Below are positions 1,785 through 64,000 of a DNA stretch of 64,000 bases, one piece after another. A program made the translations under genes and the position numbers. The notes under the pieces are model-generated. The model was not told where the DNA came from and did no database searches. It saw only the letters and a list, made by a program, of their open reading frames with translations. The stretch covers positions 551,522 through 615,521 of the forward strand of contig CATKHK010000012.1 of NCBI GenBank assembly GCA_949751835.1, given 5' to 3'. The stretch is from Blepharisma japonicum (Eukaryota; Ciliophora; Heterotrichea; Heterotrichida; Blepharismidae). Numbering within the stretch: position 1 is the first letter of the stretch; every line of letters begins with the position of its first letter.

Positions 1785-3110
1785 ATGGCTTCTTGCCAAA
1801 TATCAGAATGTTTAAACAATCCTGAAGTATACTGCAAGTGCTCTAGGAATGATCTCTTTTTCTGCGAATTTCATTTCCCTGATCATTTAGTGTCTTGTAG
1901 CTACGATCATAAAATAAAACATCTAGTCCCAAAAAATCTAAATAACCTTTCTCAACTATTGGCTAAAATAGACGATGTTCGTAATGGAATAGCAAGAATT
2001 CAGGAAAAATTAGAAAATAGTATTCAAAAATGTGAGATCAAATTAAAGCAAGCACTTGAGCTTAAAAATAAATTAGCTCCCGAACTGGATGCAGCAATTA
2101 AAGCGTGTGATATTATTGAACAATTGGCTAATAAACCAATTTTTGAAAGAGAATATTACACTCCTTTGGAATATTTAATTAAAACTAATGATGATGTTTG
2201 GGAGATTTTAGAACAAATTAAGCCTCCTAGAATGGAAAAGATAAAGCCATATGAAGATAAATGCAAAAAATGAAACTTTTATAGTACAACTGTCTGTCAC
2301 TTGCTAAATAATTATAATTCTTATTGCATGTTTTTTGAAGAAACTAAAGAAGCAAATGTATTCTCCCTAAGCTATTTTGACGGAGAAAATAGCGGTAATA
2401 TAGATAGTGATAAATTTGAACCTCACTCAAGAATAATGCTAATAAGTCCTTATGAAGTATTAATGACTGGAGGATTTAAAAAGCCTAAGACATGCAGAAT
2501 TATCAACCTAAAGAGTAAAACGATCTCAGAAGAGGCTGATTTGAATTGCGAAAGGCTATGACATTGCTGCGCCTTTATTAAAGGCTATCCTGCAGTAATT
2601 GGTGGAAGGTTTAAAGCACAAGGAACTAAAAGTGTTGAAATTTTAAAACATGAGAAGTGAAAAGAAATTGCTCCGCTTAATTACCCTAGAAGCTCTCCTG
2701 CAGCTTCTACATTATTTGATAAGGTTTATGTATATGGAGGGGGTTTTGCAATCTTCGAAGTTTTCAATGAAAAGTTAAAAGCATGGCATGAATTAAAATG
2801 TAATATAGCTGAAACCCCAACAGTAAGTGTAGGCCTTATTAGTCTATACAATGATTTTATACTAGTTTTTGGAGGAGTTTTTAATGCTAAAATCCTTTAC
2901 AATGATATTAAAAAAGCTGATCTTACCACTGGAAAAGTAACTCCTATCATCTCGCTAAAAAAAGAAGGGAAATTTTCATATGGAAATCATATAATCAGAC
3001 GCAAATTTATAAAATCTTTCAATTCTTCAGAAATAATCGAATTTGAAATAAGACAAGAAATTAGCTTACTTAATCAAGAATTTAAGCCTTCTTTTGCTTT
3101 ATCGAATTAG
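1785..3110 (+). CDS. Zinc-module protein with Kelch/beta-propeller-like C-terminus (copy A)
   Basis: A 441-residue protein read through three in-frame TGA (Trp) codons at 2271, 2559 and 2658, ending in TAG. Residues 4-42 form the Cys/His module (C4, C9, C17, C19, C27, H30, H34, H42), suited to two zinc ions and resembling B-box or AN1 fingers. A Lys/Glu-rich coiled coil follows at about residues 60-115. The C-terminal 270 residues contain recurring blocks such as VYVYGGG and LVFGGVFNA, typical of Kelch blades, so I infer a degenerate propeller. The closest relative in the window is the broken copy at 9750-11059. Its 3' end overlaps the tail of the convergent gene 3082-5013 by 29 bases. Likely a cytoplasmic adaptor or E3-like protein by analogy with TRIM/Kelch proteins. 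No catalytic residues are visible. Confidence 0.85.
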
Positions 3111-5013
3111 CTATAAGAAGCTGTGATGCTGGAGAAGCCCATAATAAGTCTTCAACTAATGATATTAATTTTGATCATATAATTGATTCTTCGATTTTTT
3201 TCCTTGCATTTGAGTCATTATCGATTTTTCAAATTTTTAACGTACCATCAAAGCTGCCTGATACAAGTAATTGATCTGACCAGGAAAGAGATGATACGGT
3301 TTTAGAATGGCCACAACATAGTAATTCTGGGTGATTTTCGATCAAAACAGAGTTATTTTGTCATAAGCTTCAGACTGTTACTGACCCTCCAAAATTTCCA
3401 ACAGCTAAAAGTTTTCACTTTTGGTTTCATTTTATTGCATTAATCTCATATGCTTCACCATTATGAAATGCAATAGGTCTTTCGGTAGACAAAAAATCCC
3501 AAATATAAATATATGCGTCTTTTCCTGCGAATGCCAGATAATTATCCCAATAAATTCATTCAAGTGCATATATATCGTTTATGGGCCATTCTTTTATATG
3601 CAATTCAGGCCTTATTAGGTAGGTAGAGTCTCATATATTAACACTTCCATTTCCAGAGTATGCAAGATATCGACCTGAGGGTGACCATGCCACTAGTGTT
3701 GGACAGAACTGAAGATTTTGTTGGAAAATATTACTCTCTTCATCATAATACGTTACTACTACATATTTTTCATCATTACACCAAGCAATTCTATAGTCAT
3801 TTGGAGCTCATGAAATATTTGATATTCGCGCATTGCATACATGCAATTTTTTAACTAGGTTTCTAGATGATGGCTCTCATATAAAAATATATCCCCGATA
3901 ATCGCCTGATATTACAAATTTATCGTCATATGACCATGATGTAGTTTGAAGACATAAATATATTGTCTCATCTGTTAGAATACCTACAATTTCTTTAGAG
4001 TGAATATCTCATATGTTGATTCTTAATGTTTGGGATACAGCAATATATTTCCCACTATGAGAAATTGATAAATCTTTTATTTCATCAACCCATTGCTGGT
4101 TTATTTTTAAAGTTGGTAGATTGACATTATTGGATGTAATATTTAAAAATTGGGCTCTTGATATGTTGCAATGATCTAAGTCTGAGTCACTAAAATCTGT
4201 CTTATAAAATATCCCTCCAGATAAATTTGCATAAGGTATTTTAACATTTTTAAAATCCTTATTATTGAATGAGTAATTTGCCTTAACTAAAATAGACACA
4301 GAATTTGACGCAGCTAAGGCTAAATTTTCATTATTCCTTGTTTGAAAAATGATATTGCAGAGTAAATTTTGATGATTTTGAGTTAAAGTTTTAAAATTAT
4401 TTAAAAGCTCTTCATCGTTGCATAAATTGATATTGTTATAAAAACTACACTCAAGTTGGTCAGGCAAGGTATTTTCATCAAGAGAATTGAGAAAATTTAA
4501 TATTTCAGGAAAACTAACTTTTAAAGCTTTTTCTTCTTCTAATAGGTAAGAATTTGTTGATTCAGCAATCTGTACATTTTCAATTCCATAAATATCAGCT
4601 TCTAAGATTGCTATTTCCTCAGTTAATTTTTCTATAGCTTCAATACCAGATTTCTCATTTAATGTTAATTCCTGATTTAATGCTTCTTTTGTTTTTTCAA
4701 TAAAATTGTTTAGCTCAATCAATCTCCTGTAAAGCACATCTATACTTGATTCCATAATACCGGTTATTTTCTGATCAAGAGTTATTTTTAACAATTTACA
4801 AGTTTCAGAAAATTTGGTTAATTCTTGAATAATTCTAGACTTCGCCTCCTCGTTCTTATGATAGTCAAGTTTTTTAGTGCGATGAGTTAAAGTTCCGAAG
4901 CGGCGTACATGATCGTTAATATGAACTTTACAAATAAGTGTTGGAGGATTTTTGCAAGAACATTGAATTACAGAAATATTTTGGCAGCCTTGGCTTGAAC
5001 AAATAAAATTCAT
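3082..5013 (-). CDS. Zinc-module/pentapeptide/WD40 protein (copy A)
   Basis: A 643-residue protein in one frame with many TGA-encoded Trp. The N-terminus has C5, C10, C18, C20, C28, H31, H35, H44, the shared zinc module. A coiled coil spans about residues 65-165. A helical block follows, with the motif ALAASNSVSILVKA near residue 230. Next is a short pentapeptide-like run (PYANLSGGIF, then YKTDFSDSDLDHCNI), then a WD40 propeller of about seven blades from residue 310 on, with TGA supplying the Trp of most W-D ends (for example VNIWD, IYIWD, LKIWK). Known use of such propellers is protein scaffolding. It converges with the Kelch-like gene and shares 29 bases with it. Related proteins lacking the zinc module lie at 34897-37101 and 37326-39707. 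Confidence 0.88.
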
Positions 5014-5406
5014 CTTTCTATAAATTTAATATTTATGCAATAGTTATAGAATTAGAAGATATTCTGCAATAGCGGTAAGAGAAGTAGTATATTTCTTTAA
5101 AGATTAATCCTTTAATGATGACTTAATGTTTATATGCTGTTATATTATTTATATAGCACAGGTGAAATTTGGAAACATCATTGAACTAAAGAAATATTTG
5201 CTTCTGGCTCTAACTCAGCAAAAAGCAAATCCTACGATACTACAAAAATTATATAAGAGATATAAAATGATTACTCAGAATGACCAAGCCTTGCATACAA
5301 ATAATGAAGGAGGATAAATTCAAAAATTATCAGTGCAGCTTATGTAATTGGATACAGAAACAAAGAGGAAAGACCATAAAACTAGCAAAAAGAAATATTA
5401 AAAATA

Positions 5407-7472: not shown

Positions 7473-7537
7473 CATATATTATAAAGTATTAATAATCATC
7501 AACATTAATATTTAAAGGCATTAAAAATTACTTTTTA

Positions 7538-9214
7538 CTAATTATTTGTGATTATTTTAATTTCTTCAATCTCTTTTTTATTCAAATCAAACTTGAAGTA
7601 GCCCTCTGCATTAATGTATATATATCCTTTATTATATGAACAATACACTTGATTAGGATCATGATTGATTGTTGAGTCAGCTATTCGTCTCCAATTGGTG
7701 TCACTTCCAATTTCGCTTTCATAAATTGATCCCTTTTTGCATTCAATCAAAAATAGTCTATCTGCATTTATCATTATTTTTTTTCTCTTCTCTGTAAATT
7801 GATAAGGAATTGTTGAGAAAGAATTGCGATCAATTGAATATCGCAAAAGATTATTATAAGTTCATCTAGAAATCAAAATATTTCCATTAAATATTATACT
7901 ACTGCAAAGTCAATCAGCTTGTGGCATTCGAGCTAATTTAATTCATCGATTTTGATCCAAATCAAATCTAGTAGATAGAGTAAAATTACTATGTCCTTTT
8001 CCTCCAAAGCAATAGATACTATTGCTGAAATAGATACATGATGAGTTATAACATTTTTCTCCATATGGTAGCACTTCCACCCCACTATTCACATCAATTA
8101 GCACTGTAATTCCAGATAAATTCCAATCACCAAAACAGAATAGTTTGCCATTTGGAAGCTGAGTTATGCAAGTGGCTCAGCTTAGTGGTTGTGGAGTCTC
8201 AAAGATTTTGACTTCTTCAGTTTCAGTTTCAGTATTATAAATTACTAAATCAGTTTGGCCGTTATCATATCTAAGATTATAAAGAGATGTCTTTTGCCGA
8301 TAAGCATTGAGATAATCTTTATAAGCTTGCAGTAGTGGTGGATTATTAAGAGTAGAATTGTTCTGATATGCTGAGCAAGTTGCTCTGAAATCCAGCTCTA
8401 ATTCTGGATTGTTTGGTCTACTCAAGATCTCAGCTGTTTTATTTCTTAAGGTGTCTATATCTTCAAGTTTTCTGTTGATATCATTAGCAGCTGTACTTAT
8501 TTGAGAATTAGGAAAGTTTATTTTATCTTCTTTTGGCTCTTTTAAATTTTTAAACCCTTTCTCGTTTATTATTAAAGAAATCGATTCCTTAACTTTTGCT
8601 GCCTCCGCACTTGTAGCTTTACTATTTTTATTATGATTTTTGGGATCATTTTGCATTTTCCTATCTTCTAGATATGTCTCGCATCTTTCTGTAAAGAAGG
8701 ATCTATTTAAACTCTCGAGTTTTTCATATAATATGGAAAACTGTATTTCGCTGTCATCTCAATCTCTGCCGTTGATGGGAATCAATTTTATTTCTTTAAT
8801 AGCTTCTTCAGGGTGTAAAATCAATAATCCTAATATTGGATCTTCTGAATTTGATAATAGTTTAGACTGTGAAACCTGTGAAAATAAATCATTTATTTCA
8901 CCAAAGCAGCAATCCAGCCTATTTGTGAAAAAATCTAACTCTTTCTCTAAACTAGAAAGATATCTGCTAAAGGAATCGATGATTTTTATTCTCATCTCGT
9001 TATATTTTAACTTTTCTTTTGTAAGGAACTCAAGAATTGCTTCTCTTGTCCCTTCACAAGGCTGCATAAAAATTGATTCAAGTTTATGAATGCTATTAGA
9101 CAAGTTTACATGATTCACGATATGCAGTTCACAAGATAAAGTTTCAGGAGAGGAGCATTTGCATGCATATAGAACCTCTTTTATACACCCTTTCTTAAAA
9201 CATTTCTTCTCCAT
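7538..9214 (-). CDS. Zinc-module/Kelch-like protein
   Basis: A 558-residue protein, one frame with several TGA as Trp, ending TAG. Ligands C5, C10, C18, C20, C28, H31, H35, H43 form the zinc module. The linker carries CEGTREAILEFLTKEK, a motif nearly repeated in the TPR proteins at 58-62 kb (VEGTKEAILSFL). A coiled coil and a Lys/Asn-rich stretch follow, then the conserved block RPNNPELELDF and QAYKDYLNAYRQKTSLY. From about residue 340 there are Kelch-like blades (LPNGKLFCFG, IYFSNSIYCFGGKG). Relatives are 54116-55216 and 56517-57569, which have the C-terminal half but not the zinc module. Probably a cytoplasmic adaptor; substrate unknown. Confidence 0.87.
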
Positions 9215-9749: not shown

Positions 9750-11059
9750 ATGGACGAATGCAAGATAATAGGGTGTCTTTCAAAGGCTGAAATGTATGCT
9801 AGATGTGAAGAAAAAAAGCATTATTTATGCAGAGAGCATTTTTCTGATCACATAATTAGCTGTAGCATTCCTCACAAAGTAAAGCGTATGATTCCAAGAA
9901 ACCTAAATAATTGCTTTCAGTTAATGGGTAAAATAGCAGAAGTTCGTCGTGAAACAGCAGAAACTCGAGAGGAGTGAGAAAATCATTGAGGAGAAATAAT
10001 TAGAAAATATCAATCTAAGCTGGACTTAGCCCTTGAGGCAAAAAATAAGCTACTCTCCGAGCTAGATTCTACAATTCGGATGTGCGATTTTATTTTAGGC
10101 AGGATTAAAACGCCAATTTTTGAAAAAGATTATTACACCCAATGGGAGTATTTACTTATAACTAATGATGATATTCAAAGAGAAATTTTAGATGAAATAA
10201 AGCCGGCTAGAATAGAAAAGGTAGAATGGCACAAAGGCATATGCAAAAAAATAAATTTTTATAGCTCAACATTTTGCCATCTTCTGAATAATTATAATTC
10301 GTATTGTATATATCTTGGAAATAATATAGAACTTGATTTACCACATTTAAGCTACAATCAAAATAAGTTAGATAGCCCCAAATTCGAATTTCATCAAGAA
10401 TAATGCTAATCAGTCCTCATGAAGTATTAATACCTGGAGGTCTTAAGAAGCCTAAGAGATGCAGGATTATTGATCTCAGATGTGGAACAATCACTAAAAC
10501 TGCTGATTTAAACTTTGAAAGATTTTGGCATTGCTGCACCTTTATTATGGGTTACCCTGGTGTTATAGGTGGGAAATTTGGAGAAGATGGTATAAAAAGA
10601 GTCGAAATTTTTAAGCATAAGAGATGAAAAGAAATTTCCTCATTAAACTACCCAAGAATAAGCCCTGTGGCTTCTTTATTATTTGACAAAGTTTATGTAT
10701 TTAGAGGTGATAATAGCAAATCCATTGAAATATTTAATGAAAATGATAGAAATTGGCACGAATTAAAATGTGATATTTTTGAAACCCCCTCAGTAAGCTT
10801 GGGCATGGTGAGTCTGTCAGATGACTTTCTATTAGTTTTTGGTGGAGTGTTTAATAGCACAAACTATTTTGATGATGCTCATAAAATTTGCCTAAGCACT
10901 AGAAAAGCAACATCCATAGAAAAATTGGAAAAAGTTGGAAAATTTTCATACAATTCTCATATAGTCAGAGGTAAGTTTCTAAAATCTTTTATGTATTCTG
11001 TTGATTGTGAAGTGGCAATTCAATACGATATAAAACAAGAAATCTGCTTATTTAATTAA
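9750..11059 (+). pseudogene. Zinc-module/Kelch-like gene, copy B, with a frameshift
   Basis: Aligns along its whole length with the intact gene 1785-3110, including the zinc module (C4, C9, C19, C27, H30, H34, H42), the coiled coil, PIFEKDYYT, and the propeller blocks LVFGGVFN and DKVYVFRG. TGA is Trp at 9975, 9987 and 10625. One base is missing relative to copy A near 10395-10402, where copy A reads H-S-R-I-M and copy B runs into TAA. The frame resumes at 10403. The third Cys of the module is replaced (YAR against YCK). It converges on 11095-13010 with a 35-base gap. Either a young pseudogene or a single-base assembly error; the parallel decay of its partner favours the former. Confidence 0.65.
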
Positions 11060-11094: not shown

Positions 11095-13010
11095 TTAATT
11101 AAATGCTTGAAAAGTCCAAACCAACTGCTTGGTTAATTTTTCTATAGTCCAGTCAACCTCTATTTTTCAAACTTTTATAGTGCCGTCTGAGCTTCCTGAT
11201 ACTAAGAGATCGTCTGCCCATGAAAGAGCTGATATATCTTTTGAATGACCGCTAAATGACAATTCATGAAATTCACAAAATTCTTGAATCCAATTCTCTG
11301 CATTTGTTTTATGTGCAGGCCTAGTAAATTTATAAGTCCTTGGAAGCTTCCTACTGCTAAGAACTCTTTTCTTTTATTTCATTTTATTACTGTTATTGGA
11401 TGTTTTACTTTATGGTTAAGTTTTCTAGTAATTACTTCAGACAAAAAATTTCAAATATAAATATAACAATCTTTTCCAGCAAATACCAGATAATCATCGC
11501 CTTTAATTCACTCCAATGCATATATATTTTCTATATTACGTTTATATTTTCTTTCATCTTTTAAATCTCATATATTGATTCATTTATTTCCATAATATCA
11601 AGCTAGATACCTCCCAGAATCAGACCATGCAATTATGGAAGTATCGCATCCAAGATTATCTTCAAAAAGAATATTTTCTCCATCTAAATTTCTAATTGCT
11701 ACATTCGGATAGCTGCATAAAGCTATTCTGTAGTCATTTGGGGCTCATGAAATGCTTGGAATTAGGTTTTTACTATGTTGTATTTTTGCAAATAAATTGC
11801 CAGTTATTGATTCTCATATAAAAACAGCTCCTCCATAATCTCCTGTGACTATGTATGCATCATCATATGATCACGATACTGCTGTGAATCATAAACAGAC
11901 AGACTCGCTAGTAAGCTCTTTAATTTTTTCTTTAAAATGAATATTTCATATATGAATTTTTTTAAGTTGAGTTGCAGCGATATATTGTTGATCATGGGAA
12001 ATTGATAAATCTTTTATCTCTTTGGCACATTGCTCTTTATTTGGTTCCAAGTTTTGAATTTTGGTGCCATTTGATATTATATCTGAAAATTGAGCTCTTA
12101 TTATGTTGCAATTACTTAAATCAGAGCCACTAAAATCGGTCTTGTCAAATATCCCGCCAGATAAATTTGCATAAGGTATTTTGATATTTTTAAAATCTTT
12201 ATTATCAAATGAGTATTTTGCTTTAACTAAAATCGACATTGCATTTGATGCAGCTAAAGCCAAATTTTCGTTAAGTCTTGTCGAAAAAATGATATTGCAA
12301 AGCAAATTTGATTGTTTTTCAGTCAAAGTTGTAAAATTATTTAAAATGTCATCTCTATTACAAAAATTAATTGTATTAAAAATACTGTGTTCAAGGTCAG
12401 ACAAGTCATTTTCAGCAAGAATATCAAGATACTGGAATATTGAAGTAGCGTTAAATTCATCTACTTTTAATATTATTTTGTCTCCTAAACCTTTTTCTTC
12501 CTCTTCTAATGGAGAAGGAAATTTTGAAGCTGAAATTTTTATATCTTCAATTCCCTTTATATCAGCTTCTAAACTTGCTATTTCTTCAGCTATTAATATC
12601 ATTCTTTTATTGCCAGATTTCTTAATTAGCCTTGAATCTTGATTTTCTATATCTGCATTATTCCTTATATCTTCAATATAATGGATTGCATTATCTAATC
12701 TCATAGAAATCTCATCAATTTTCCCTTTAAAACTGTTAAATTTCTGGCCAAGAGTTATTCTTAACGATTCCAAAACTTGACAAGATTCATTTAACTCCTC
12801 CTTTTCCTTTTCCTCCTCAACTTCTATATTCTCAACATTAGAATCTTCGTTATTCTGAAGGTCAATTTTTTCGTAAAGATGAGTCAAAGTTCCATACCTA
12901 ATTATATGAGCGCTTATATGATCTTTGCAAATTAGCAAATACTGAGTACTGCAACTGCATCGAACCAAAGGAACATTCTGGCAGTCCGGTTCTGCACAAA
13001 AAAATCAATC
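11095..13010 (-). pseudogene. Zinc-module/pentapeptide/WD40 gene, copy B, start lost and frameshifted
   Basis: Similar to 3082-5013 throughout: zinc module (the piece FFCAEPDCQNVPLVRCSC at the N-terminus), acidic coiled coil, LAASNAMSILVKA, pentapeptides (YANLSGGIFDKTDFSGSDL) and WD40 blades. Two defects are visible. At the expected start the ATG of copy A is replaced by GAT in alignment, and no in-frame ATG occurs before the upstream TAG. Near 11325-11345 the frame of the WD40 part shifts; the tail (FSGHSKDISALSW, VSGSSDGTIKVWKIE) reads in another frame to the TAA at 11095. Most of the coding sequence is otherwise open, so the damage looks recent. Assembly error at two points is less likely but possible. 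Confidence 0.68.
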
Positions 13011-21968: not shown

Positions 21969-22646
21969 TTAAGATCGATTTGGCATTGGAGATATAATTT
22001 TGATGGACTTTTTATATATTTTAAAGCTGAAATTATAACCTCTTGTTGTTTAGAGATATCAAATCAATATTTTTAATAAAAAATCCAATATTTTCCTTAT
22101 GTTATAAATATTCATACTTCTAGAAATTAAGCGAATTGGTTAATTATGAAGATTAAGGAATCCTCATTTTGATCATTATATGCCAAGCTCTATGTCCGTG
22201 ACTATTAGCCCAAGCAATTGTCTTTTCTTCTTTAGCTTCATATTTCTCCTGACACCCTTGGCAGTAATCAAAATCTGGGCAATGAGCACATTTATATCTT
22301 GTCCCTGCAACAGTCCCATCGCAATGCCCTGTATTTTGATTGTCACACCTGCACCAATGCTGTTTATCTTCCTGATCCTCTTCAAATTCTTTTTTCTCGT
22401 GAGTACTTGCTCCAAACTTCAAAAAGTCGAGTTTTTGAGCTTCTGGATGAATAACAAATACAGAATGAGGGTGAGAAAACTTGGCAGAACCGACTACACC
22501 TTCTTTTATAACTTTTTCACAATTATCGCAATGGTAATGCTTAGGGTCACAGTATAAACACTGATATTGAATGTCGTTAGGGGTTAATGGAGCATTACAA
22601 ATATTGCATTGGGTGCCTCTTTCACAAGTATCTTCAGCAGTAATAG
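21969..22646. repeat. Direct repeat, left copy (3' half of thioredoxin/ZZ gene plus flank)
   Basis: About 680 bases that recur with high similarity at 24605-25287. The repeat includes some 180 bases of non-coding sequence downstream of the stop codon and the ZZ-coding part. It shows that the duplication involved genomic DNA, not a processed transcript. Confidence 0.85.
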
Positions 22647-24081
22647 CCTTGACTCTTATATCAGCTTCTGGGAAAACTTCTTTTATTTTGTCAACAAGAG
22701 GAGTTGCTGTATCTTTTTCAGTAGCTGAATATTCACCCCAAATGAAGGATTCTTGAGTTTCTTCATGAGAGTCAGCTGTTTGAATTAATTTTGCATCAAA
22801 ATTAATTAAAGGAGGTTCAGTGTATGAATTTGCTGATATAAATTCTTCATAAGCTTTTTTCAGTGCTTCGATTCTTCCATCATACTCTTCTTTGCCTATA
22901 AGATGGACTTCTTCTTGTTGATATTTAGTAGGTAATGGCTCTCCTTTTAATAATGCTTCCACATCTTGCTCAAATTTTCTTTCACTTGGGTGCCCTACCC
23001 AAAGAATTTTTCCTTTGTGAACTAGGACACAAGTTGGAATTCCAGTCAAATCAAAAATTTTAGGAGCTGATTCATCAAATCCTTTAGGACCAGCCCATAA
23101 GTTTCTTACCAAAGTCCAGCCTTTTTGATTACATCTTTCAATGATCTCATTTTTCCCATCATCCAATGAAATCGCCAAGATAATAAATTTTCCTGCCCAT
23201 TCTGGATGACTAGCAAGCATGTCTTGATTATGCTGCATTGGTTTTTGGCAAGGTCCACACCAGGTTGCCCAAAAATCGATTAAATAAACTTTACCATCGT
23301 CTTCTGGCCATGTCAAAGTGACCGCCTCTTCTGTATTTGTATCTAAAACGTTTAGTGAAGGGCAAGAATCCCCAGCTTTTGGAGGAGGTGGGGGTAAAGA
23401 TAAAGGACTCCCTGCAACTCCTTCATTTATTAATTTTTCTAGATCTACCTTAGATGGATGGCCACTCCAGAGAAGTTTTCCATTGCGGACTAAAAAGCAG
23501 CTAGGAATTCCCTCAATTCCTAAACTTTTTGCAGAGGTACTACCAAATCCTTCCGCGCCTGCCCAAAATGAAGAAATTTTGGTCCACCCTTTTTCTCTCA
23601 TTCTAGATTCTGGTTCTTCTTTGGTATCATCTAAAGAAACTGCAATGATCTCTACATGTCCTTCCCAGCCAAGGTTTCTTTCAAGCATTTCTTGGTTATG
23701 CTTCATAGGTTCTTGGCAAGGCCCACACCATGTAGCCCAAAAATCCAGTAAATAAAGTTTATTATCGTTGGAATCGAAATTCAATGTAACTGCTTCACCG
23801 TCAGAAACCTTAAAAACTGAAAGTGATGGAAACGAATCTCCAACTTTAGGAGCAACATCAATATAAAGCTGAACTTTCTTTTCTTCTTCAGAAAGCTGAG
23901 ATTCAAGCTGGGACAACTGGGAAAAACTCCCTTTTCCATTTAGGGAAGTCCATATGTTTTCTCTTACATCCATCCCTGAAAAGCCATAATGCTTTGTGGA
24001 GTTGAATTTAAGATCAGAAATGCCTAAATTGGAAGCTTTTGCTATGAATGAAGCACCAGTTTCTAATAGGTCGCCAAACAT
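22153..24081 (-). CDS. Tandem thioredoxin-fold / double ZZ zinc-finger protein
   Basis: 642 residues, ending TAA. Two thioredoxin-like domains of the TlpA/nucleoredoxin type lie in tandem, each with FWATWCGPCQ (active-site Cys pairs near residues 118/121 and 277/280). Each also has a downstream cis-Pro motif (GIEGIPSCFLV and DLTGIPTCVLV). A PPPPP linker joins them. The C-terminal part has two ZZ-type zinc fingers: CNICNAPLTPNDIQYQCLYC with HYHCDNC, and CDGTVAGTRYKCAHC with DYCQGC, ending near HGHRAWHIM. ZZ fingers bind peptides, often N-terminal tails. No signal peptide, so a cytosolic disulfide reductase or redox-dependent adaptor is inferred. Decayed copies surround it. Confidence 0.9.
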   Translation of the reverse strand: MFGDLLETGASFIAKASNLGISDLKFNSTKHYGFSGMDVRENIWTSLNGKGSFSQLSQLESQLSEEEKKVQLYIDVAPKVGDSFPSLSVFKVSDGEAVTLNFDSNDNKLYLLDFWATWCGPCQEPMKHNQEMLERNLGWEGHVEIIAVSLDDTKEEPESRMREKGWTKISSFWAGAEGFGSTSAKSLGIEGIPSCFLVRNGKLLWSGHPSKVDLEKLINEGVAGSPLSLPPPPPKAGDSCPSLNVLDTNTEEAVTLTWPEDDGKVYLIDFWATWCGPCQKPMQHNQDMLASHPEWAGKFIILAISLDDGKNEIIERCNQKGWTLVRNLWAGPKGFDESAPKIFDLTGIPTCVLVHKGKILWVGHPSERKFEQDVEALLKGEPLPTKYQQEEVHLIGKEEYDGRIEALKKAYEEFISANSYTEPPLINFDAKLIQTADSHEETQESFIWGEYSATEKDTATPLVDKIKEVFPEADIRVKAITAEDTCERGTQCNICNAPLTPNDIQYQCLYCDPKHYHCDNCEKVIKEGVVGSAKFSHPHSVFVIHPEAQKLDFLKFGASTHEKKEFEEDQEDKQHWCRCDNQNTGHCDGTVAGTRYKCAHCPDFDYCQGCQEKYEAKEEKTIAWANSHGHRAWHIMIKMRIP

Positions 24082-43800: not shown

Positions 43801-44408
43801 AGGATATTAAGCAACCCTGATGGTTTCACTTGAACGCCTACCAAATCGTTAGCTACATTTTGGCTTTGGGAATTGGAAAAAGAGAAAAATTTAATATTCT
43901 GATAGAGATGTTTTCCTTGGAATATATTTGCGAGTTGGATTGACTCAAAGGACTCACTGTGAATTATTACGTATTGTGACCAATTAAATAATGTTAATAC
44001 GCTATTTAGAGCTTCATAATGACTCACTTCAGGATGCATGGTAAAATAATCCCATTCTTGGAAGGAACTGTAAGGCTTATCCAAAACTAGATGGATAAAC
44101 TCAAGCTCCGAAGAAACTTTTGATATTTTGCTGCTAAGAGTCAAGCTAGACGTTGAGTCTATAACTATACTTGAGTTTACTAGTAGATTTTGAATTGAAG
44201 TTTCTTGAGTAATTTCAATAGCAATGGCATCAACCAGTTTAGAGTAGTTATTGTTCAGTGAATAAACTAATGATTCTAAAAGCTGCTCATCAGTATCTTG
44301 ACTGTATAGAATGTGTAGAAATTGAATTGCTGATGCATGAATGATAAGAAACCAGAAATTTGTCATGCTAAATAAATAATATATATTTATTAAATGCTGC
44401 TTCATCAA
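40818..44408 (-). CDS. Receptor with ANF/periplasmic-binding-like ectodomain and multiple membrane helices
   Basis: 1196 residues in one frame with numerous TGA Trp, ending TAA. A signal-anchor-like start (FWFLIIHASAIQFLHILYS) precedes a region of about 670 residues resembling the receptor ligand-binding (type 1 periplasmic-binding) family: IFGWKDIVVIYENSTFGLSLY and the late KQLGAVGTCYSFNAAMLGIY are typical. From about residue 745 there are roughly seven to nine hydrophobic helices (LLIGILSLISLTFSLIFL, FGFIPIVMILFTLF, ALFGLVFIVIISILSIYT and others), then a polar tail. Similar ectodomain-plus-helices proteins are common in ciliates. Ligand and output are unknown; GPCR-like signalling is one option, a channel another. 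No cyclase or kinase domain follows. Confidence 0.82.
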
Positions 44409-45068
44409 TTCTTGTTGAAAAAGCCAGCAATTAGTTTTTGCATGCTAAATGCCTCAGATTTCCCTCTTACTTATTAAAGAATCAGTAGTAGAGAATTAAA
44501 AATTTGGAAAAATACAAATATAGTAAAAATCAGTTTGTTAAAATATCCATCATAAATTTACTTAGGTAAACATTAAGAAAAAATCATAGGCATTTTAATT
44601 TTATATATGCTTAAGAAAAATTAATAGCATTTTGAATACTTATAAAAATTATAATTATATATTTATATATGTTTTAAATTTATTATCTTTAATTAAGTTT
44701 AGAATTTATCTTAAATTAATTTTTTAGCTCATAGACTAAGAATATTAAAATTTAATACTATTATATTTCAATATTTTTTAAATTAGTTTATCTATTTGAA
44801 CTAAATATATTTGAATAATAATGAGCAAAATATATACTCTTAATTAATTGTTCAAAGAAATTTGCCAATTAAAATGACTGACAATATTGTAAGAATTCAA
44901 TGAAGAATTTAGGCACGTAAATTGAAGATGGCTATAAAAACCCCAAGTGAAAAAAGATAAAATCCCATCTAACAGTTTTACTATTGACTTACACTCTAAT
45001 ATATACTATGATCATTACTAATTGCTATTTTACCTTTTTGAGACAAAGATTTTATTCTAAAAAATGCT
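44409..45068. other. Intergenic, very AT-rich
   Basis: 660 bases of extreme AT content with runs of TATA-like sequence. No gene recognised. Confidence 0.5.
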
Positions 45069-54115: not shown

Positions 54116-55216
54116 TTATAAGGATATTGCTTTATTAGTGTTAAATTTCAATTGCAATTCATCTTTTTGAATCCTAATCATAAACTTTTTTCTTAAATCA
54201 AACTTGTAATACCTATTTTGAGAGCTTATTTTTATGTGTATTGCTCCTTTATTATATGAGCAGTAAGCTTGGAAAGGATCATTAAAAATTATTGAGCCTG
54301 CGATTTGTTTTCAAAGATACTCACTTCCTATATCGCTTTCATAGATTAGCCCTTCTGAGCCAGCACATTCAAATAAATAAAATCTCTCTTCTACGCGTAT
54401 CAGAACCTTTCTTCTTGCCACGCCAAATTCATAAGGAATTGTTGAGAAAGAGTCAATATCGACTGAATATTGCAATATATTTTTATTAAAACAGCCTGAA
54501 ATTAAAATATTACCATTATACATTGCACTGTTGCAAAGGAAATCATTTTTTGGCATAGGAGTCAGTTTGATTCATTGAAATTTATCCAAGTCAAATCTAT
54601 TGGATAAACTTAAAGCGTTACCCCTATATGATCCTCCAAAGCAATAGACACTTCTGTTAAAATATATGGCTGAAGATCCTGAGCAAGGTGCTCCAGACGG
54701 TAGCACTCTAACTCCATAATTACTGTCAATTATTAATGTAGTTCCTGAAGTGGGGTGGTCACAACCAAAACAGAATAGCTCAGCATTCGGAATTTGAGTA
54801 ATACATGTCCCAATATCTATTTTTTTAGGAGTTTCCAGCGTTTTCATATCTTCTTTTTCAAATTCAGTGTCATAAATAACCAATCTAATTCTCTCATTAA
54901 CTTCTTGAATAAGATAAAGAGACGTTATTTGATGATAAGCCTTTATATAGTCTTGATAAGCTTGACTTAGCGATAAATCAGGGTGCGGGCATTCATTCTC
55001 ATATAATGTGCAAATTCTTCTGAATAATTGCTCCATTTCAAAGTCATTATAAGTTCTACTCAAAATTGCTAATCTTTGGGACTTTAACTGATAAAAATTT
55101 AATAATTGATTTGTAAGACCTTGATTAAATTGGCTTGCTTCATTATCTGAATTTTCAAATCTTGAATTTTTTTGATAATTAAGCAAATTTATTTGGCTTC
55201 AAATTTTTTGCTCCAT
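54116..55216 (-). CDS. Kelch-like protein without zinc module
   Basis: 366 residues, ending TAA, with TGA as Trp (first at codon 6 of MEQKIWSQINLL). The start at 55216 is the only ATG before the conserved region. The block AYQDYIKAYHQITSLYLIQ corresponds to AYKDYLNAYRQKTSLY of 7538-9214. Kelch-like blades follow (IPNAELFCFG, IYFNRSVYCFGGSYRG, YNGNILISGCFN). Relative to 7538-9214, the N-terminal zinc module and coiled coil are missing. A different frame just upstream (55250-55320) carries EKLKFKFG-like residues that could be the decayed remainder, so the gene may be 5'-truncated yet still open. Confidence 0.78.
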
Positions 55217-55739: not shown

Positions 55740-56516
55740 GTGAAAGAATAAAAGTGAAATTATTGGAAAAATATTTGTATTTTCTATATGCTTAAACTAT
55801 ATAAAATTAACTTTTCGTTAAATTCTGTACATTATTTATAACAAAAACATGAGTCAGATAACTACTTGGGCTTAAAAATGAAATTCATAGTTTAGAAGAA
55901 GTTATTTAGGATTAAATTTTCCTTAAAAATGGATGTGAGAAACCCGAACTCCATAGTTTTCGAGTTACTTTTAATTCACGTAACTTTATCCCAATCAATA
56001 GGAGTAGAATATTAAATTTTATCTAGACACTTGAGAAACATATACTCGGGCATGAGGTGCTAAATACAAAAAGTGCTTCTTATTTCAGTATTGAAGACAA
56101 AGCAGCATATTAGGTATTTTTGTCAGTATTGCCATTCTTGGCGTTAATTAATTTAGCCTAACTTACTTTTTCAGTTAATGATTTTTAGTTAATATTACAA
56201 ATTTCAATATTTATATAAGTTTTTCATATAGGATTTCAAAATTCAAATTATTTTCACTTTCGCCTAATTATAAGTAAATTTCAATGTGCTAATATTAAAT
56301 CGATTATTTGTAAATTTTTGTGTGTAGAATCCTTAATAATACTCTTCTCTTAAATTTAATTTTCTGAGAAATCAAAAATGCAGTTTCTGAGTAGTAGCAC
56401 ACATTTTTTGAATTAATAAATAGAGAATTTCTTAGCTTATATGGAATAACTTCTATTCACTTATTAATCCTGCTATTATTATAGCTAGCAAATGTAATAA
56501 TTCTATTTTCAGCATT
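55740..56516. other. Intergenic, no gene seen
   Basis: AT-rich sequence upstream of the plus-strand Kelch-like gene. Nothing recognised. Confidence 0.45.
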
Positions 56517-57569
56517 ATGGAAGAGAAAGATAAGGGCTGAAAATTATTTGAAGATTGAAAAGAAGCATCAAAGTGAAAAACAGAAAATGAATATAGTTTA
56601 TTTAATTTTCAATTCTTTACTATCAATGATTTGCAAAATCAAAATGCCATGGCTTTACAAAATTTAATAGATAGGAGATCTCAGATTTTCTATAGACCCA
56701 ATAATCCAGAATTGGAGTATGAATTTAGAATAATGACCTCAGCATATAGGAACGACCCCAAAAACGATGATTCACAACTAGCAAAGGCTTATCAAGACTA
56801 CATCAACGCTTATAACCAAAAAACATCGCTCTATTTAATAGACCGATTCAATAATTTATATATTTATAACACTGAGAGCGATAAAAAGGAAACAAAGCCA
56901 TTGGAGACTCCAAAACCTCTAGTTCGAACTACTTGCATTACTCAGCTTCCAAATGGTAAACTATTTTGCTATGGTAAATATCCAGGTTCTGGGATAACAA
57001 TGATAATTGATGAGAATAATTCAAACCAAATACTTCCATCTGGAACACCTTGTAGGTCATCTTCAGCTATTTATTTTAACCATAATGTTTATTGTTTTGG
57101 TGGGAAAAATAAAGATGATGCTCGTTTAGCTCTATCTGCTAGGTTTGATTTATGTCAAAATAGATGAATCAAATTAACTTCATTGCCTCAACCTGAATCC
57201 TCTTGCAACAGTGTAATATTTAATGGAAATATTTTAATTTCTGGATATTTAAACAGAAATCTTTTGTTGTATAGCATTGATATTGACTCATTCTCTATAA
57301 TTCCTTATGATTTTGCAAAGAAAAAAAGAAAGATCTTGATAAATGCAGAGAGACTGTATTTGATTGAATGTAATAGTGGATCAATCTATGAAAGCGAAGT
57401 TGGAAGTGACACGAATTGGAGATGAATAGCAGATTCAACAATTAAAATTCATCCTTATCAAGCATACTGCTCATACAATAAAGGAAAAATATATATTGGG
57501 TGCATTCGTAATGAAATCGAATACTTCAAGTTCAATCTTGATGAAAAAAAATTGGTCATTTTAGATTAA
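56517..57569 (+). CDS. Kelch-like protein without zinc module
   Basis: 350 residues with several TGA Trp codons in the first 30 residues (KDKGWKLFEDWKEASKWKT), so the true start at 56517 lies well upstream of the first standard-code frame. The block RPNNPELEYEF then AYQDYINAYNQKTSLYLID matches the gene at 7538-9214 closely. Kelch-like blades include LPNGKLFCYGKYPGSG, IYFNHNVYCFGGKN and FNGNILISGYLNRN. It lacks the zinc module: the residues before the conserved block are a short helical extension instead. Ends TAA. Confidence 0.8.
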
Positions 57570-58012: not shown

Positions 58013-59293
58013 TTAAACATTTAATAAATTTTCAGCTCTCTTAAAGAGTTCCATAGCTTCTTCTCTTCTGCCTAACTTAGCTAGAGCTAATACTTTATTT
58101 CTATAATAAATTGGTTCATTTGGATTGATTCTAATTGCATCGTTGTAATGTTTTAGTGCTTCTTCATATCTCTTTTCATTTTTCAAGATAATTCCTATGT
58201 TATTGTATGCATCAGCATCATTTGGATCAATTCTGATAGCCTCTAAAAAGCATTCTATAGCTTCTTCTCTTCTGCCTAACTCAGATAGAGCATTTCCTTT
58301 ATTTCTATAATAAATTGCATCATTTGGATTGATTCTAATTGCGTCGTTGTAATATTTTAGTGCTTCTTCGTATCTCTTTTCATTATAGAAGATATCTCCT
58401 ATGTTATTGTATGCAGGTGCATAATTTGGATCCATTCTGATAGCTACTTTATAGCATTCCATAGCTTCTTCTCTTCTGCCTAACTCATCTAGAGCCATCC
58501 CTTTATTTATATAATAAAGTGCATCGTTTGGGTTGATTCTAATTGCATCGTTGTAATGTTTTAGTGCTTCTTCATATCTCTTTTCATTATAGAAGATATC
58601 TCCTATATTATTGTATGCAGGTGCATAATTTGGATCAATTCTGATAGCTTCTTTATACTTGTCTAGTGCTGACTGTAAATTTTTCCCTTCATTCTTAAAA
58701 TTCATTCCCTCTTTAAGATTGATTTTTAATTCACAATGTATTTTATCTGAAATAAATTTGGACTTTTCTTCGTAGAAGCTCTTGATAATTATATCAATTT
58801 GTCTTCCTATATCACAAAATAACTCAATGCTCTTATTTGCTTTTGCTGTAAAAATTTTTCTAGCTTTATCAACAACATCATTCGATTGTAAAGCTAACAA
58901 ATTTAAAGCCGGATCTATCTCCAATTTAGATAGATTTTGTGTTGTTCAGATTTTTTCTACATAACTGGCAATTTTTGTAGAATCAGAGTCGATTTCTTTT
59001 AAAACTTGTTCAAGTATATTTTGATAACTACAAATAGTTTGAGAAAAAGTAGCGATAATTTTTATTTTTATTTGCTCAATTTTTGATTTTTCTTCTACAA
59101 GAAAGCTAAGGATCGCTTCTTTCGTACCTTCAACAGGCTCATAAAATAATGAGATGGGATTATGAGGTACTTTACTAGATATGCAATGACTCCCACAGTG
59201 TTCTCTGCAAAAATAAATATCAGAAGAAGCGCAGCTGCATGAAAGCTCAGCTTCTCTGTCACATTTTGACCAATCGCATTTTATGGTGCTCAT
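58013..59293 (-). CDS. Zinc-module/TPR protein 1
   Basis: 426 residues; one TGA Trp (EKIWTTQN). Ligands C6, C11, C19, C21, C29, H32, H36, H44 form the zinc module. The linker VEGTKEAILSFLVEEKSKI matches that of the zinc-module/Kelch gene. A coiled coil follows to about residue 175, then seven TPR units to the end, alternating between two types (YAPAYNNIGDIFYNEKRYEE and DALYYINKGMALDELGRREE), which makes a 68-residue super-repeat. TPRs bind peptides of partner proteins. Compared with 60116-61789 it has four fewer TPRs. Ends TAA. Confidence 0.88.
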
Positions 59294-60115: not shown

Positions 60116-61789
60116 TTATAATATTTTAGCTCTGTTAAAGCATTCCATAGCTTCTTCTCCTCTGCCTAACTCAGATAGAGCTAATCCTTTATTTCTATAA
60201 TAAATAGGTTCATTTGGATTGATTCTAATTGCATCGTCGTAATGTTTTACTGCTTCTTCATATCTCTTTTCATTAGAAAAGATATTTCCTATGCTATTGT
60301 ATGCATCAGCATCATTTGGGCCAAGTCTGGTAGCTTCTTTATAGCATTCCGTAGCTTCTTCTCCTCTGCCTAACTCATTTAGAGCATATCCTTTATTTCT
60401 ATAATAAATTGGTTCATTTGGATTGATTCTAATTGCATCATTGTAATATTTTACTGCTTCTTCATATCTCTCTTCATTTTTCAAGATAATTCCTATGATA
60501 TTGTATGCAGGTGCATAATTTGGATCAATTCTGATAGCTTCCTTATAGCATTCCATAGCTTCTTCTATTTTGCCCAACTCTCTAAGAGCCATTCCTTTAT
60601 TTCTATAATAAAGTGCATCATTTGAATTGCTTCTAATTGTATCATTGGAATGTTTTAGTTCTTCTTCATATCTCTCTTTATTTTTCAAGATTATTCCTAC
60701 GGTATTGTATGCATCAGCATTATCTGGATCAATTCTGATAGCCTCTAAAAAGCATTCCATAGCTTCTTCTCTTCTGCCTAACTCAGATAGAGCATTTCCT
60801 TTATTTCTATAATAAATCGGTTCATTTGGATTGATTCTAATTGCATCTTCGTAATGTTTTAGTGCTTCTTCATATCTCTTCTCATTATAGAAGATATCTC
60901 CTATGTCATTGTATGCAGGTGCATCATTTGGGTCAATTCTTAGAATTTCTAAAAAGCATTCCATAGCTTCTTCTCTTCTGCCTAACTCAGAAAGAGCATT
61001 TCCTTTATTTGTATAATAAAGTGCATCATTTGGATTGATTCTAATTGCATCGTTGTAATGTTTTAATGCTTCTTCATATCTCTTTTCATTATAGAAGATA
61101 TCTCCTATGTCATTGTAAGCAGGTGCATAATTTGGATCAATTCTGATAGCTTCTTTATACTTATCTAGTGCTATCTGTAAATTTTCCCCTTCATTCTTAA
61201 AATTCATTCCCTTTTTAAGAATGCTTTTTAATTCACAATGCTCTAAAATAAATTTGGACTTTTCTTCGTAGAAGCTCTTGATAATTGAATCGATTTGTCT
61301 TTCTATATCGTAAAATAGCTTTAGGTTATCATTTGATCTTGCTATAAAAATTTCTCTAACTTTATCAATAGCTTCATTTGATTGTAAAGCTAACAAATTT
61401 AAAGCTGGATCTTTCTCCAATCTTGATAGATTTTGTGTTATCCAGATTTTTTCAACATAATTACCAATTTTTTTGGAATAAGAGTCAATTTCTTTTAAAA
61501 CCTGTTCAAGGATATTTTTATGACGGCAAATAGTTTGAGAAAAAGAAGCGATTATATTTGCTTTTGTTTCCTTAATTTTTGATTTTTCTTCAGCAAGAAA
61601 GCTAAGGATCGCTTCTTTTGTGCCTTCAACAGGCTCATAAAATAATGAGATGGAATTATGAGGTCCTTTACTAGATATGCAATGACTCTCATGGTGTTCT
61701 CTGCAAAAATAAGTATCAGAAGAAGTGCAGCTGCATGAAAGCTCAACTTCTTTGTCACATTTTTCCCAATCGCATTTGATGGTGCTCAT
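60116..61789 (-). CDS. Zinc-module/TPR protein 2
   Basis: 557 residues without in-frame TGA, ending TAA. The zinc module (C6, C11, C19, C21, C29, H32, H36, H44) and coiled coil are about 80 percent identical by eye to TPR protein 1. Eleven TPR units follow, alternating the two types that make a 68-residue super-repeat. Several units are identical in sequence within the gene and between the two genes, implying unequal exchange. Unit 6 (YNTVGIILKNKERYEEELKH) is the most diverged. Superhelical TPR arrays of this length form concave peptide-binding surfaces; the partner is unknown. Confidence 0.88.
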   Translation of the reverse strand: MSTIKCDWEKCDKEVELSCSCTSSDTYFCREHHESHCISSKGPHNSISLFYEPVEGTKEAILSFLAEEKSKIKETKANIIASFSQTICRHKNILEQVLKEIDSYSKKIGNYVEKIWITQNLSRLEKDPALNLLALQSNEAIDKVREIFIARSNDNLKLFYDIERQIDSIIKSFYEEKSKFILEHCELKSILKKGMNFKNEGENLQIALDKYKEAIRIDPNYAPAYNDIGDIFYNEKRYEEALKHYNDAIRINPNDALYYTNKGNALSELGRREEAMECFLEILRIDPNDAPAYNDIGDIFYNEKRYEEALKHYEDAIRINPNEPIYYRNKGNALSELGRREEAMECFLEAIRIDPDNADAYNTVGIILKNKERYEEELKHSNDTIRSNSNDALYYRNKGMALRELGKIEEAMECYKEAIRIDPNYAPAYNIIGIILKNEERYEEAVKYYNDAIRINPNEPIYYRNKGYALNELGRGEEATECYKEATRLGPNDADAYNSIGNIFSNEKRYEEAVKHYDDAIRINPNEPIYYRNKGLALSELGRGEEAMECFNRAKIL

Positions 61790-62789: not shown

Positions 62790-63042
62790 CCAGATCTTGC
62801 TAATGCTAAAAATTGCTAAACTAAGCACAAAATTAAGACTATCAGTTAGACTACCTCCTCGGGTGGATGCTGAAGTGCTGCTGCCAAGTTGCACGAAGTT
62901 ATAGTAAAAGATCCTCCACATGGAGTTACAATTGAAGCAAAAATCCCATTCAAAGGAAACGGATTTGCACCAAATCCTTTGGAGCCATGGCTAAGCAGCT
63001 CCTTCGCTAAAATTGTAGGAATCATTAAGGCTGCAGAATAGA
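62790..63042 (+). pseudogene. Fragment of an M20-family metallopeptidase
   Basis: The frame SVRLPPRVDAE shifts by one base near 62865 into AAAKLHEVIVKDPPHGVTIE, AKIPFKGNGFAPNPLEPWL and SSSFAKIVGIIKAAE, ending TAG. This pattern (RLPP..D...A, KDPP.G, PW) is typical of the dimerisation domain of carnosinase-like M20 peptidases. Both ends and all catalytic residues are missing, and the frame is broken. The fragment runs directly into the opposite-strand M18 fragment. Confidence 0.65.
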
Positions 63043-63049
63043 CGATATT

Positions 63050-63565
63050 ATCAGTTCCCATCATTTCTCTAATAGAATGCATCGCCAACATCGAAGCTCA
63101 AATATCAACTGCTCTAATCCCAGTAAGTGAAGCCACAATTGGCCCAATGGTCGTTCCGCAAGGAGACTCATTTGTCACTATAAACTCCTGCGTTTTAATT
63201 CCATTGCTCTCCGCATGGACTTTCAATAAGCTTGCTCTCAGCATATAGGTCGCATCCCAAATTGGATTTCTTTTTATAAAAACCTCTCCTTGTGCAGTGG
63301 GCCCGTAGCTTACTTAATGCTTTTCAACATAATTTGAATGCATAGCATAAGCCATATCAGCTGAAATATGGAAACCTTCGGATTTATCTTGAGGGATTTC
63401 TTCTAGCTCAGGGATATTTTCTTCTTTTGAACTTTCTTCTTCAGGCTGCAGACCAGTCGTTACACTTTGAAATATAGTTCTTTTCAATATTTTCATAATC
63501 AGGATGGACTTTATACTCTTCTTTTTTGGCCAATATAAGAATTTTGATAGCCTAAAATTTTCCAA
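63050..63565 (-). pseudogene. Fragment of an M18 aspartyl aminopeptidase
   Basis: Minus-strand reading gives GFHISADMAYAMHSNYVEKH, an in-frame TAA, then GEVFIKRNPIWDATYMLRAS, TNESPCGTTIGPIVASLTG and MLAMHSIREMMGTDN. These match the M18 signature motifs: the metal-binding Asp in SADMA, the PCGTTIGP loop, and the metal-binding His in MHSIRE. The N-terminal half with the remaining metal ligands is absent, the frame has a TAA at about 63314, and after MGTDN the sequence becomes the antisense of the M20 fragment. A chimeric relic. Confidence 0.7.
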
Positions 63566-63756
63566 AGGGATGCTTGCAATTATTAATCCTTGGAGTACTC
63601 ATTTATGCAAGTTCAAGCCCCCTAATCAGTTATTCATAAATTCTTTATCATCAGAATGCAAATTATTTACTGAATATTTCTGTGTTTAGGATTGTCTAAA
63701 AAACGAGATTAATGTACATTTTTCATATAAATTAGCTACTTTAATAATAATTCTAG

Positions 63757-64000
63757 ATGGATCAAAAGAAGTGCTTCGAGCCAGGCTGCAAAAATGAAGT
63801 TGAGTATGCATGCAAATGCACCTCTCCTGAATCTCTCTTCTGTGAGCTGCATATCGGAATGCATATTAAAAAGAAAATTGCTGGCAGGGATCATTCATTT
63901 GACTCTATTTTTGCAGAGCCTAATGAAGAGACAAAACAAGCTGTTCTTAGATTTCTTATGAAAGAAGATTCAAAGTATAGGAAGCTAAAGAAGTTAATTA
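63757..64000 (+). CDS. Zinc-module protein, N-terminus (cut by window edge)
   Basis: 81 codons from ATG at 63757, still open at the edge. C6, C11, C19, C21, C29, H32, H36 then DHSFDSIF, the shared zinc module, followed by a linker (EPNEETKQAVLRFLMKEDSK) like that of the Kelch and TPR members. It most resembles the gene at 7538-9214 (MEKKCF, YACKCSSPE, CELHI), so a Kelch-like C-terminus is expected but not visible. Confidence 0.75.
   Translation, partial: MDQKKCFEPGCKNEVEYACKCTSPESLFCELHIGMHIKKKIAGRDHSFDSIFAEPNEETKQAVLRFLMKEDSKYRKLKKLI

Follow-up and report, generated by a model that had tools for sequence, protein, structure and literature searches.

A Blepharisma gene family that joins one conserved, putatively zinc-binding head to various repeat domains

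Animals, plants and fungi are known to carry immune-like receptor repertoires whose repeat platforms diversify. Nematodes possess large MATH-BTB and F-box ligase-adaptor families, in which selection acts on the substrate-binding sites. In TRIM (RBCC) proteins a zinc module is followed by long helices and then by a C-terminal domain, for instance Kelch or WD40, that serves in recognition. According to the excerpts of PMC4986451, selection in fungal NLRs with conserved WD40, ANK or TPR repeats acts on the repeat positions of the interaction surface. The family described here, from the ciliate Blepharisma japonicum, comprises hundreds of genes in which one conserved, putatively zinc-binding head is combined with various repeat domains. 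It has the look of a recognition or adaptor repertoire, in which some proteins have fast-changing binding faces. If this is true, a single-celled ciliate has a repertoire of a comparable kind, and the strategy would extend to a distant lineage. The organism can be cultured, the variable positions and the constant head are named and the donors of mosaic genes are traceable, which makes the idea readily testable. No description of the family was found among the titles and abstract openings listed, although one may still exist in print, nor in the passages of PMC10946202.

We analysed a stretch of 64,000 nucleotides (the window) whose position 64000 is the end of contig C12 (615521). It was translated in six frames, with TGA read as Trp, and scanned for the exact pattern C-x4-C-x7-C-x-C-x7-C-x2-H-x3-H-x7/8-H. 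Six exact copies were found, against 0 in total when the window was shuffled 300 times in three-base blocks. One further copy has a final gap of 9, longer than the x7/8 of the pattern. Together with two decayed copies, these bear out the claim of the first-pass annotation that one module family with a common Cys/His pattern recurs at multiple loci of the window. The features are the following.

831 to 1067, minus strand: decayed module of the pentapeptide-WD40 type (44% identity, E 4.2e-16, to the 3085-5013 module)
1785 to 3107, plus strand: intact member of 441 aa, exact module at 1794-1910 and Kelch tail (Kelch_6 E 1.8e-8)
3085 to 5013, minus strand: intact member of 643 aa, exact module at 4882-5001 and WD40 tail with a pentapeptide-like stretch (WD40 E 1.7e-16)
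7541 to 9214, minus strand: intact member of 558 aa, exact module at 9086-9202, linker EGTREAILEFL and Kelch tail (Kelch_6 E 2.4e-7)
9750 to 11056, plus strand: decayed relative of the 1785 protein, split over two frames (9750-10400 and 10376-11056), with a Pfam Kelch match in the second
11205 to 13007, minus strand: decayed copy of the 3085 type, exact module at 12879-12998 (WD40 E 1.4e-11, Pentapeptide E 2.7e-6)
22156 to 24081, minus strand: protein with two thioredoxin-like domains and a ZZ finger (ZZ E 1.1e-5)
54119 to 55216, minus strand: Kelch protein with no module in its open frame (Kelch_1 E 1.2e-4, 21.9 bits against a cut-off of 20.1)
56436 to 57566, plus strand: Kelch protein with no module in its open frame (best Kelch match PF24681, E 3.4e-8)
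58016 to 59293, minus strand: intact member of 426 aa, exact module at 59162-59278, linker EGTKEAILSFL and TPR tail (TPR_1 E 5.7e-51)
60119 to 61789, minus strand: intact member of 557 aa, exact module at 61658-61774, linker, long helices and TPR tail (TPR_1 E 1.3e-76)
63757 to 63999, plus strand: member cut by the contig end, module at 63772-63894, linker EETKQAVLRFL, frame open to the contig end

Three of the nine module copies are decayed, in agreement with the local expansion and decay proposed earlier. The copy at 831-1067, which corresponds to the own-genome match C12:552352-552588, has lost several ligands in its translation. In the 9750 copy, Ala replaces the third Cys of the module and the frame is broken between 10376 and 10400; Kelch is confined to the second frame, and the first (9750-10400) has no Pfam match. 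The 11205-13007 copy (the 11,095 locus) keeps all eight ligands, no ATG lies between the preceding stop and its module, and its last WD40 part is in a different frame. The Kelch protein at 56436-57566 scores below the cut-offs (PF24681, 33.5 bits against 50; Kelch_6, 21 bits against 25.3). The six-frame scan detected no module pattern near this protein or near that at 54119-55216; by eye, both are similar to the tail of the 7541 protein.

The family would share the TRIM order of zinc module, long helices and C-terminal platform, with the helices predicted, and the predicted fold of its module is nearest to a B-box. The nearest ATG in the six ATG-bearing window types lies 3-5 residues ahead of the first Cys, which leaves no N-terminal RING, and no RING was among the Pfam matches listed for 10 window proteins or fragments at E<=1. 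Unlike TRIM proteins, the family has no RING in front, its module has the spacing C-x4-C-x7-C-x-C-x7-C-x2-H-x3-H without a Pfam B-box score, its tails include TPR and pentapeptide-WD40 types, and it runs to hundreds of copies with a bias toward contig ends. Of the TRIM-like repertoire proposed at first, the build of head, predicted helices and repeat tail is supported; identity with TRIM is not supported (no RING and no Pfam B-box match). Pfam confirmed the Kelch, WD40 and TPR tails in window members, and a pentapeptide match above the cut-off was present in the 11205-13007 copy among the matches listed. The EGTKEAILxFL linker is common to the TPR copies and the 7541 Kelch copy, as had been noticed, with a variant in the 63757 copy; it is absent from the 1785 and 9750 Kelch copies and from the WD40 copies of the window. 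A coiled coil had also been placed behind the module. Long helices are indeed predicted there in a 197-residue model of one member, the 60119 protein (residues 55-119 and 138-195; moderate confidence, pTM 0.36 and pLDDT of the blocks 50-83 for head plus helices), and their pairing as a coiled coil is our proposal.

The module reaches no Pfam family cut-off, and the remark that its spacing is non-standard for B-box or AN1 agrees with the lack of a Pfam match to either. The B-box family PF00643 occurs at 65 places of the genome at E<=0.001, none of them on contig C12, and it was absent for 16 of 16 modules at E<=5, a setting at which the HMMER filters drop most matches above 0.1. AN1 was rejected as the identity of the module since no AN1 row appeared for the modules, and SCA7 since it reached 18.2 bits against a cut-off of 23 (E 0.0023) in one of 10 window proteins or fragments. 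Chance-level matches to Bee_toxin, Tc5 C-terminal and Rec114 were also seen. The PDB yielded no sequence relatives (two matches, E 0.31 and 0.7). The AlphaFold2 model of the module (pLDDT 79.7, pTM 0.57) found as its best Foldseek match the PML B1-box 6imq (TM 0.64/0.71, probability 0.89, E 0.81), and four more B-box-titled structures were among the best 50 of 112. From the predicted fold, the module is likely to be B-box-like; this kinship is not proven because it relies on a fold without a significant E-value. It is doubtful, in our judgement, that the module is no relative of the B-box but an independent two-zinc fold, or SCA7-like; even then, the protein as a whole could still act in recognition as proposed below. 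The missing Pfam B-box match, the hhalign probability of 1.3% against the B-box profile, the presence of ZZ, RING and ZFAND1 structures in the same fold list and the weak SCA7 match would suit it, but the PML B1-box match and the further B-box structures argue against it.

Searches of the own genome placed the family at 309 or more merged places on 112 contigs; 195 come from strong matches and 114 are weaker-based because they come from two weaker searches. These places derive from 150/150 rows of the 60119 query, 150/150 of the 7541 query, 140/150 of the 3085-module query and 27/135 of a fourth, with E up to about 9e-4 and matches within 200 bases merged. The 60119 and 7541 proteins each gave at least 150 genome matches, self included, the best 150 at E<=4.1e-10 and E<=9.7e-15, respectively. 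On contigs above 200 kb of recorded size, 52 of 77 family matches lay within 20 kb of a contig end (expected 8%), a bias that is partly an assembly effect because repeated families are places where contigs often break. The corresponding number for canonical B-boxes was 2 of 39, from a control set of 60 of the 65 PF00643 rows (five second B-boxes beside another match were omitted). Of 60 fetched loci, 52 contain an open frame that is 350 residues or longer, and tiny introns may interrupt some of the short frames. All eight ligands were kept in 134 of 144 candidate modules, which comprised 56 fetched loci pre-chosen by pattern, 8 window copies and 80 short stretches from the match lists, mostly one a contig. 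Among the 80, which were picked regardless of pattern, 72 keep the first seven ligands and 71 all eight; of the eight that fail the seven-ligand pattern, six have one ligand changed, one has lost several and one has a broken frame. No relatives were confirmed in viral contigs with a TPR-type query (22 pattern matches) or in prokaryote genomes with a Kelch-type query (28 pattern matches).

The earlier proposal of domain shuffling was borne out only in part. On a tree of 69 N-termini, made with the 'quick' method and carrying long-branch warnings, the tail label changes only 5 times, against a possible minimum of 4 and a mean of 22.1 after shuffling. For the most part, a tail is thus inherited together with its head, and free shuffling is ruled out. 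The tree omits 8 of 60 scanned loci (4 of them are present as window rows), another 10 TPR near-copies and the truncated 63757 copy of the window; tails of 20 loci were labelled by eye and two are unlabelled. On the other hand, there are two clear recent mosaics. A gene on contig C170 has an N-terminus 91% identical to a C19 gene, while its Kelch tail is 76% identical to L067 and 58% to C19. Another, on contig C88, has an N-terminus 88% identical to a Kelch gene on C177, yet it carries a TPR+ZZ tail. The lengths of 17 of the 20 TPR genes with an in-locus stop fit a 68-residue ladder (354, 422-426, 490-491, 557-559); the remaining three measure 362, 366 and 466 residues.

Purifying selection acts on the module (dN/dS 0.29 and 0.33 in the Kelch sets and 0.44 in the TPR set, the window's two TPR genes omitted). 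Diversifying selection on ligand-facing repeat positions, as in NLRs, was observed in the TPR class only. From 27 of 29 TPR loci, including the window's two TPR genes (L009 and L019), 184 of 211 units were kept; the 27 with fewer than 18/34 consensus matches were dropped. Ligand-facing positions (2, 5, 9, 12, 13, 33 and 34) were taken from the literature. Their dN/dS was 2.25 and 1.58, compared with 0.69 and 0.49 at the remaining positions, and their pN 0.408 and 0.330, compared with 0.092 and 0.086. The ligand-face ratio exceeded 1 in 200/200 and 199/200 gene bootstraps, and close pairs showed the same pattern (2.00-2.05 and 1.30-1.39). Random seven-site sets reached the observed pN in 0 and 10 of 20000 cases, which is significant, and the observed dN/dS ratio in 1734 and 2175 of 20000, which is not; the case for selection therefore relies on pN, bootstraps and close pairs. 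Kelch tails overall gave dN/dS of 0.40-0.87, none above 1. The dipeptides ahead of three conserved Kelch strands, picked after looking, have pN of 0.64-0.66 against 0.09-0.12, but they are saturated (dN/dS 1.63, 0.69 and 0.81) and their hypervariability is suggestive only. Within-gene homogenisation of TPR repeats is unsupported because repeats are hardly more alike within genes (0.862 and 0.872) than between genes (0.843 and 0.854).

Our best reading is that these proteins would be TRIM-like in build and fungal-NLR-like in evolution. TPR and WD40 tails, stepwise repeat number, recombining heads and tails and selection on interaction-surface positions would be shared with the fungal NLRs, as far as the excerpts of PMC4986451 describe them; the ciliate family differs from that description in its head, in its rarer tail swaps and in TPR units whose DNA is 84-87% alike, to much the same degree inside one gene as across genes. 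No NACHT or NB-ARC was among the Pfam matches listed for 18 proteins or fragments. We consider it fairly probable that this is a large recombining family of intracellular recognition or adaptor proteins with a constant head and a diversifying tail. The head would be a B-box-like finger binding two zincs, with ligands grouped as 1, 2, 5, 6 and 3, 4, 7, 8 after the model of the B-box, and the helices behind it, probably a coiled coil, may assemble into dimers or larger oligomers, as TRIM proteins do. The tail would serve as a repeat platform (TPR, Kelch, pentapeptide-WD40, WD40 or TPR+ZZ), in which selection diversifies the ligand-facing residues of the TPR class and different tails presumably bind different ligands. 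Acting putatively inside the cell, the common head would give one output, for which clustering, together with the recruitment of a ubiquitin or signalling partner, is the likeliest candidate. Sources of new variants may be recombination among the copies that crowd near contig ends, the gain or loss of TPR pairs of 68 residues and, now and then, a swap of tails. We hold more tentatively the idea that a heterotrich ciliate has evolved a somatic repertoire of its own, in which hundreds of receptors inside the cell recognise non-self (or tell self from non-self), with a B-box-like oligomerising head and hypervariable TPR, Kelch or WD40 sensors, formed by mosaic recombination near chromosome ends and convergent with animal TRIMs and fungal NLRs.

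It seems rather unlikely that the proteins are substrate adaptors that have expanded in this lineage to serve ordinary protein turnover or cytoskeletal work, with no role in non-self recognition and a variable face that follows the cell's own changing substrates. A B-box-like head combined with Kelch, WD40 and TPR platforms would suit a ligase adaptor, RING-B-box-coiled coil-Kelch proteins occur in the same genome (L006-L008, by eye) and one family member has a ZZ tail; however, a TPR face with dN/dS above 1, hundreds of copies and recent mosaics would be unusual for such adaptors. The nematode MATH-BTB and F-box adaptor families are likewise large and under selection at the sites that bind substrates, but they differ in head domain and lineage, and a ligase link of the ciliate family is our proposal. 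Less likely still is a recombination-driven burst of genes near chromosome ends with little function for the organism, in which TPR variability reflects relaxed constraint. Such a burst would be in line with the contig-end bias, the three decayed copies among nine in the window and the eight failing stretches among 80, but not with the low dN/dS of the module, the long open frames in 52 of 60 fetched loci or the TPR face, since relaxed sites tend to 1 and not to the observed 1.3-2.3. As for the ZZ tail of the family member on contig C88, it is 60% identical (92/154) to the ZZ tail of the 22156-24081 protein of the window.

The first-pass annotation had described a recurrent Cys/His pattern, C-x4-C-x7-C-x-C-x7-C-x2-H-x3-H-x7/8-H. 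This pattern occurs exactly six times in the window and in none of 300 shuffles. The local decay proposed with it is borne out by the nine copies of the module, of which five are intact, three are decayed and one is truncated by the contig end. The repeat partners were also recovered. Pfam detected Kelch repeats in the copies starting at 1785, 7538 and 9750 (at 9750 in a second frame), WD40 at 3082 and 11095, and TPR at 58013 and 60116, and pentapeptide repeats above the Pfam cut-off were seen at 11095. The linker is common to the TPR members, the Kelch member at 7538 and the member cut by the contig end.

The sequences were translated with TGA as Trp and TAA and TAG as stops, and under this code the window genes are read as long frames. 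For Blepharisma stoltei, UGA as Trp, CCCTAACA telomeres, introns of 15-16 bp and a 41 Mb draft with 64 telomere-to-telomere sequences are described (PMC9942806). The assembly of B. japonicum comprises 45.19 Mb in 224 contigs, with CCCTAACA repeats at or near contig ends (13 contigs among the matches listed). The window (C12:551522-615521) ends at a contig end because contig C12 stops at base 615,521.

We examined 144 modules (56 fetched loci pre-chosen by the pattern, 8 window copies and 80 short stretches from match lists). All eight Cys/His ligands are present in 134, and 88 of these 134 have gaps of 7, 7 and 7. Among the 80 short stretches, 72 retain the first seven ligands and 71 all eight; in the eight that fail, a single ligand is altered in six, several are lost in one and the frame is broken in one. 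Pfam and PDB searches found no sequence relatives of the module, and a profile of 59 modules matched nine B-boxes of the same genome with a probability of only 1.3%. An AlphaFold2 model built from window sequences only (mean pLDDT 79.7) has strands at 17-19, 26-28 and 46-48 and a helix at 30-39. Its top Foldseek match is the PML B1-box (probability 0.89, TM 0.64/0.71, rmsd 2.3, E 0.81); the lower ranks hold further structures of the B-box, ZZ and RING types as well as unrelated proteins. The module is therefore likely to be B-box-like by predicted fold, yet is not classed as a B-box. The same genome also carries RING-B-box-coiled coil-Kelch proteins (loci L006-L008; B-box from Pfam, remainder by eye).

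Four own-genome searches gave 150, 150, 135 and 150 matches from 497, 334, 155 and 525 first-pass candidates, the best 150 at most being scored in each. The two strong searches, with the TPR member 60119 and the Kelch member 7541 (worst E 4.1e-10 and 9.7e-15), merge into at least 195 places; all four united, with the weaker ones used to about E 9e-4, give at least 309 places on at least 112 contigs. Further copies lie on C12 between 537934 and 551372, directly left of the window. On contigs above 200 kb of reported length, matches within 20 kb of a contig end number 52 of 77 in the 195 set (7.9% expected) and 69 of 143 in the 309 set (8.5% expected), against 2 of 39 for canonical B-boxes (7.9% expected). 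Many of the ends, including the one that closes the window, are assembly breaks rather than telomeres. Within 10 kb of 13 telomeric ends among the matches listed there are five family matches on four contigs, where 0.56 (195 set) or 0.89 (309 set) would be expected. Dense one-strand arrays of module genes were seen at C6:678449-716406, C77:160853-208183 and C50:1998-23085; most of their genes have a single in-frame TGA inside the match, and the scanned tails on C6 and C77 are Kelch.

Sixty loci, four of them the window's own, were scanned for tails: 29 carry TPR, 23 Kelch, three pentapeptide-WD40, one WD40 and two a Cys-rich tail, and in two none was found. The proposed domain shuffling stands in part. 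On a tree of 69 N-termini (133 columns; 28 of its 66 internal branches left open, with long-branch warnings) the tail changes only five times, against a shuffled mean of 22.1, and 0 of 200 shuffles was as low; tails are therefore mostly inherited along with heads. However, two genes are recent mosaics. The first 190 residues of a C170 gene are 91% identical to a C19 gene (DNA 94.4%), whereas its Kelch tail is 76% identical to locus L067 (DNA 90.1%) and 58% to the C19 gene (DNA 79.2%); its head shares 40% with L067. A C88 gene is 88% identical to a C177 Kelch gene across 200 residues, and its tail is TPR plus a ZZ part 60% identical to the first of these window proteins:

22156-24081, minus strand: two thioredoxin-like domains and a ZZ finger in one protein, whose ZZ tail recurs on the C88 module gene
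24824-25372, minus strand: adjoining second, partial ZZ-like copy (by eye)
37329-39719, minus strand, with more frames at 34.5-37.2 kb: WD40 proteins (domain search) resembling the 3085 tail by eye, in the same frame without a zinc module

By eye, a coiled-coil-like repeated long spacer is present in 5 of 20 loci of one fetched set; L153, L158, L160, L163 and L164 carry a repeat of this kind of about 22 residues in long arrays of variable length C-terminal to the module. The tails of module genes L044 and L047 have Cys-rich C-terminal ends, RING-like by eye, for which Pfam gave no match at E<=0.01.

In TPRs generally, positions 2, 5, 9, 12, 13, 33 and 34 are concave-face and most variable (PMC1261162). 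At these seven positions of the family's TPRs pN was 0.408 (86 units) and 0.330 (98 units), against 0.092 and 0.086 elsewhere; of 20000 random site sets, 0 and 10 attained so high a pN. The corresponding dN/dS was 2.25 and 1.58 (27-gene bootstraps 1.70-3.01 and 1.11-2.62), against 0.69 and 0.49 elsewhere; the ratio at the seven positions was attained by 1734 and 2175 of 20000 random site sets. Close TPR pairs agree with the overall contrast. Heads are under purifying selection (dN/dS 0.29-0.44 for the module, 0.33-0.64 for the helices), and whole Kelch tails gave 0.40 and 0.87, none above 1.

A constant, conserved and probably oligomerising head with a diversified binding tail matches the layout of TRIM proteins and fungal NLRs. 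For the latter, repeat-number changes and selection at TPR interaction-surface positions are also reported (PMC4986451), and B-box oligomerisation is described for PML (PMC6706441). Most probably, the repeat tail would bind a ligand, whereupon the helices and the zinc module (zinc binding is predicted) would cluster and a common partner would be recruited. Candidate ligands would be intracellular bacteria or viruses, other Blepharisma cells, or endogenous substrates of the cell. We slightly favor the general model, in which the family consists of recognition or adaptor proteins; that it is a repertoire for non-self recognition is a tentative proposal, rather less probable than not.

The window also contains:

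30192-31622 and 31711-33708, plus strand: Cys-rich tandem pair, perhaps secreted (by eye)
40821-44444, minus strand: 1208-aa frame, by eye receptor-like, combining several membrane spans with a front that would bind a ligand
62849-63313, minus strand: fragment presumably like the C-terminal part of aspartyl aminopeptidase
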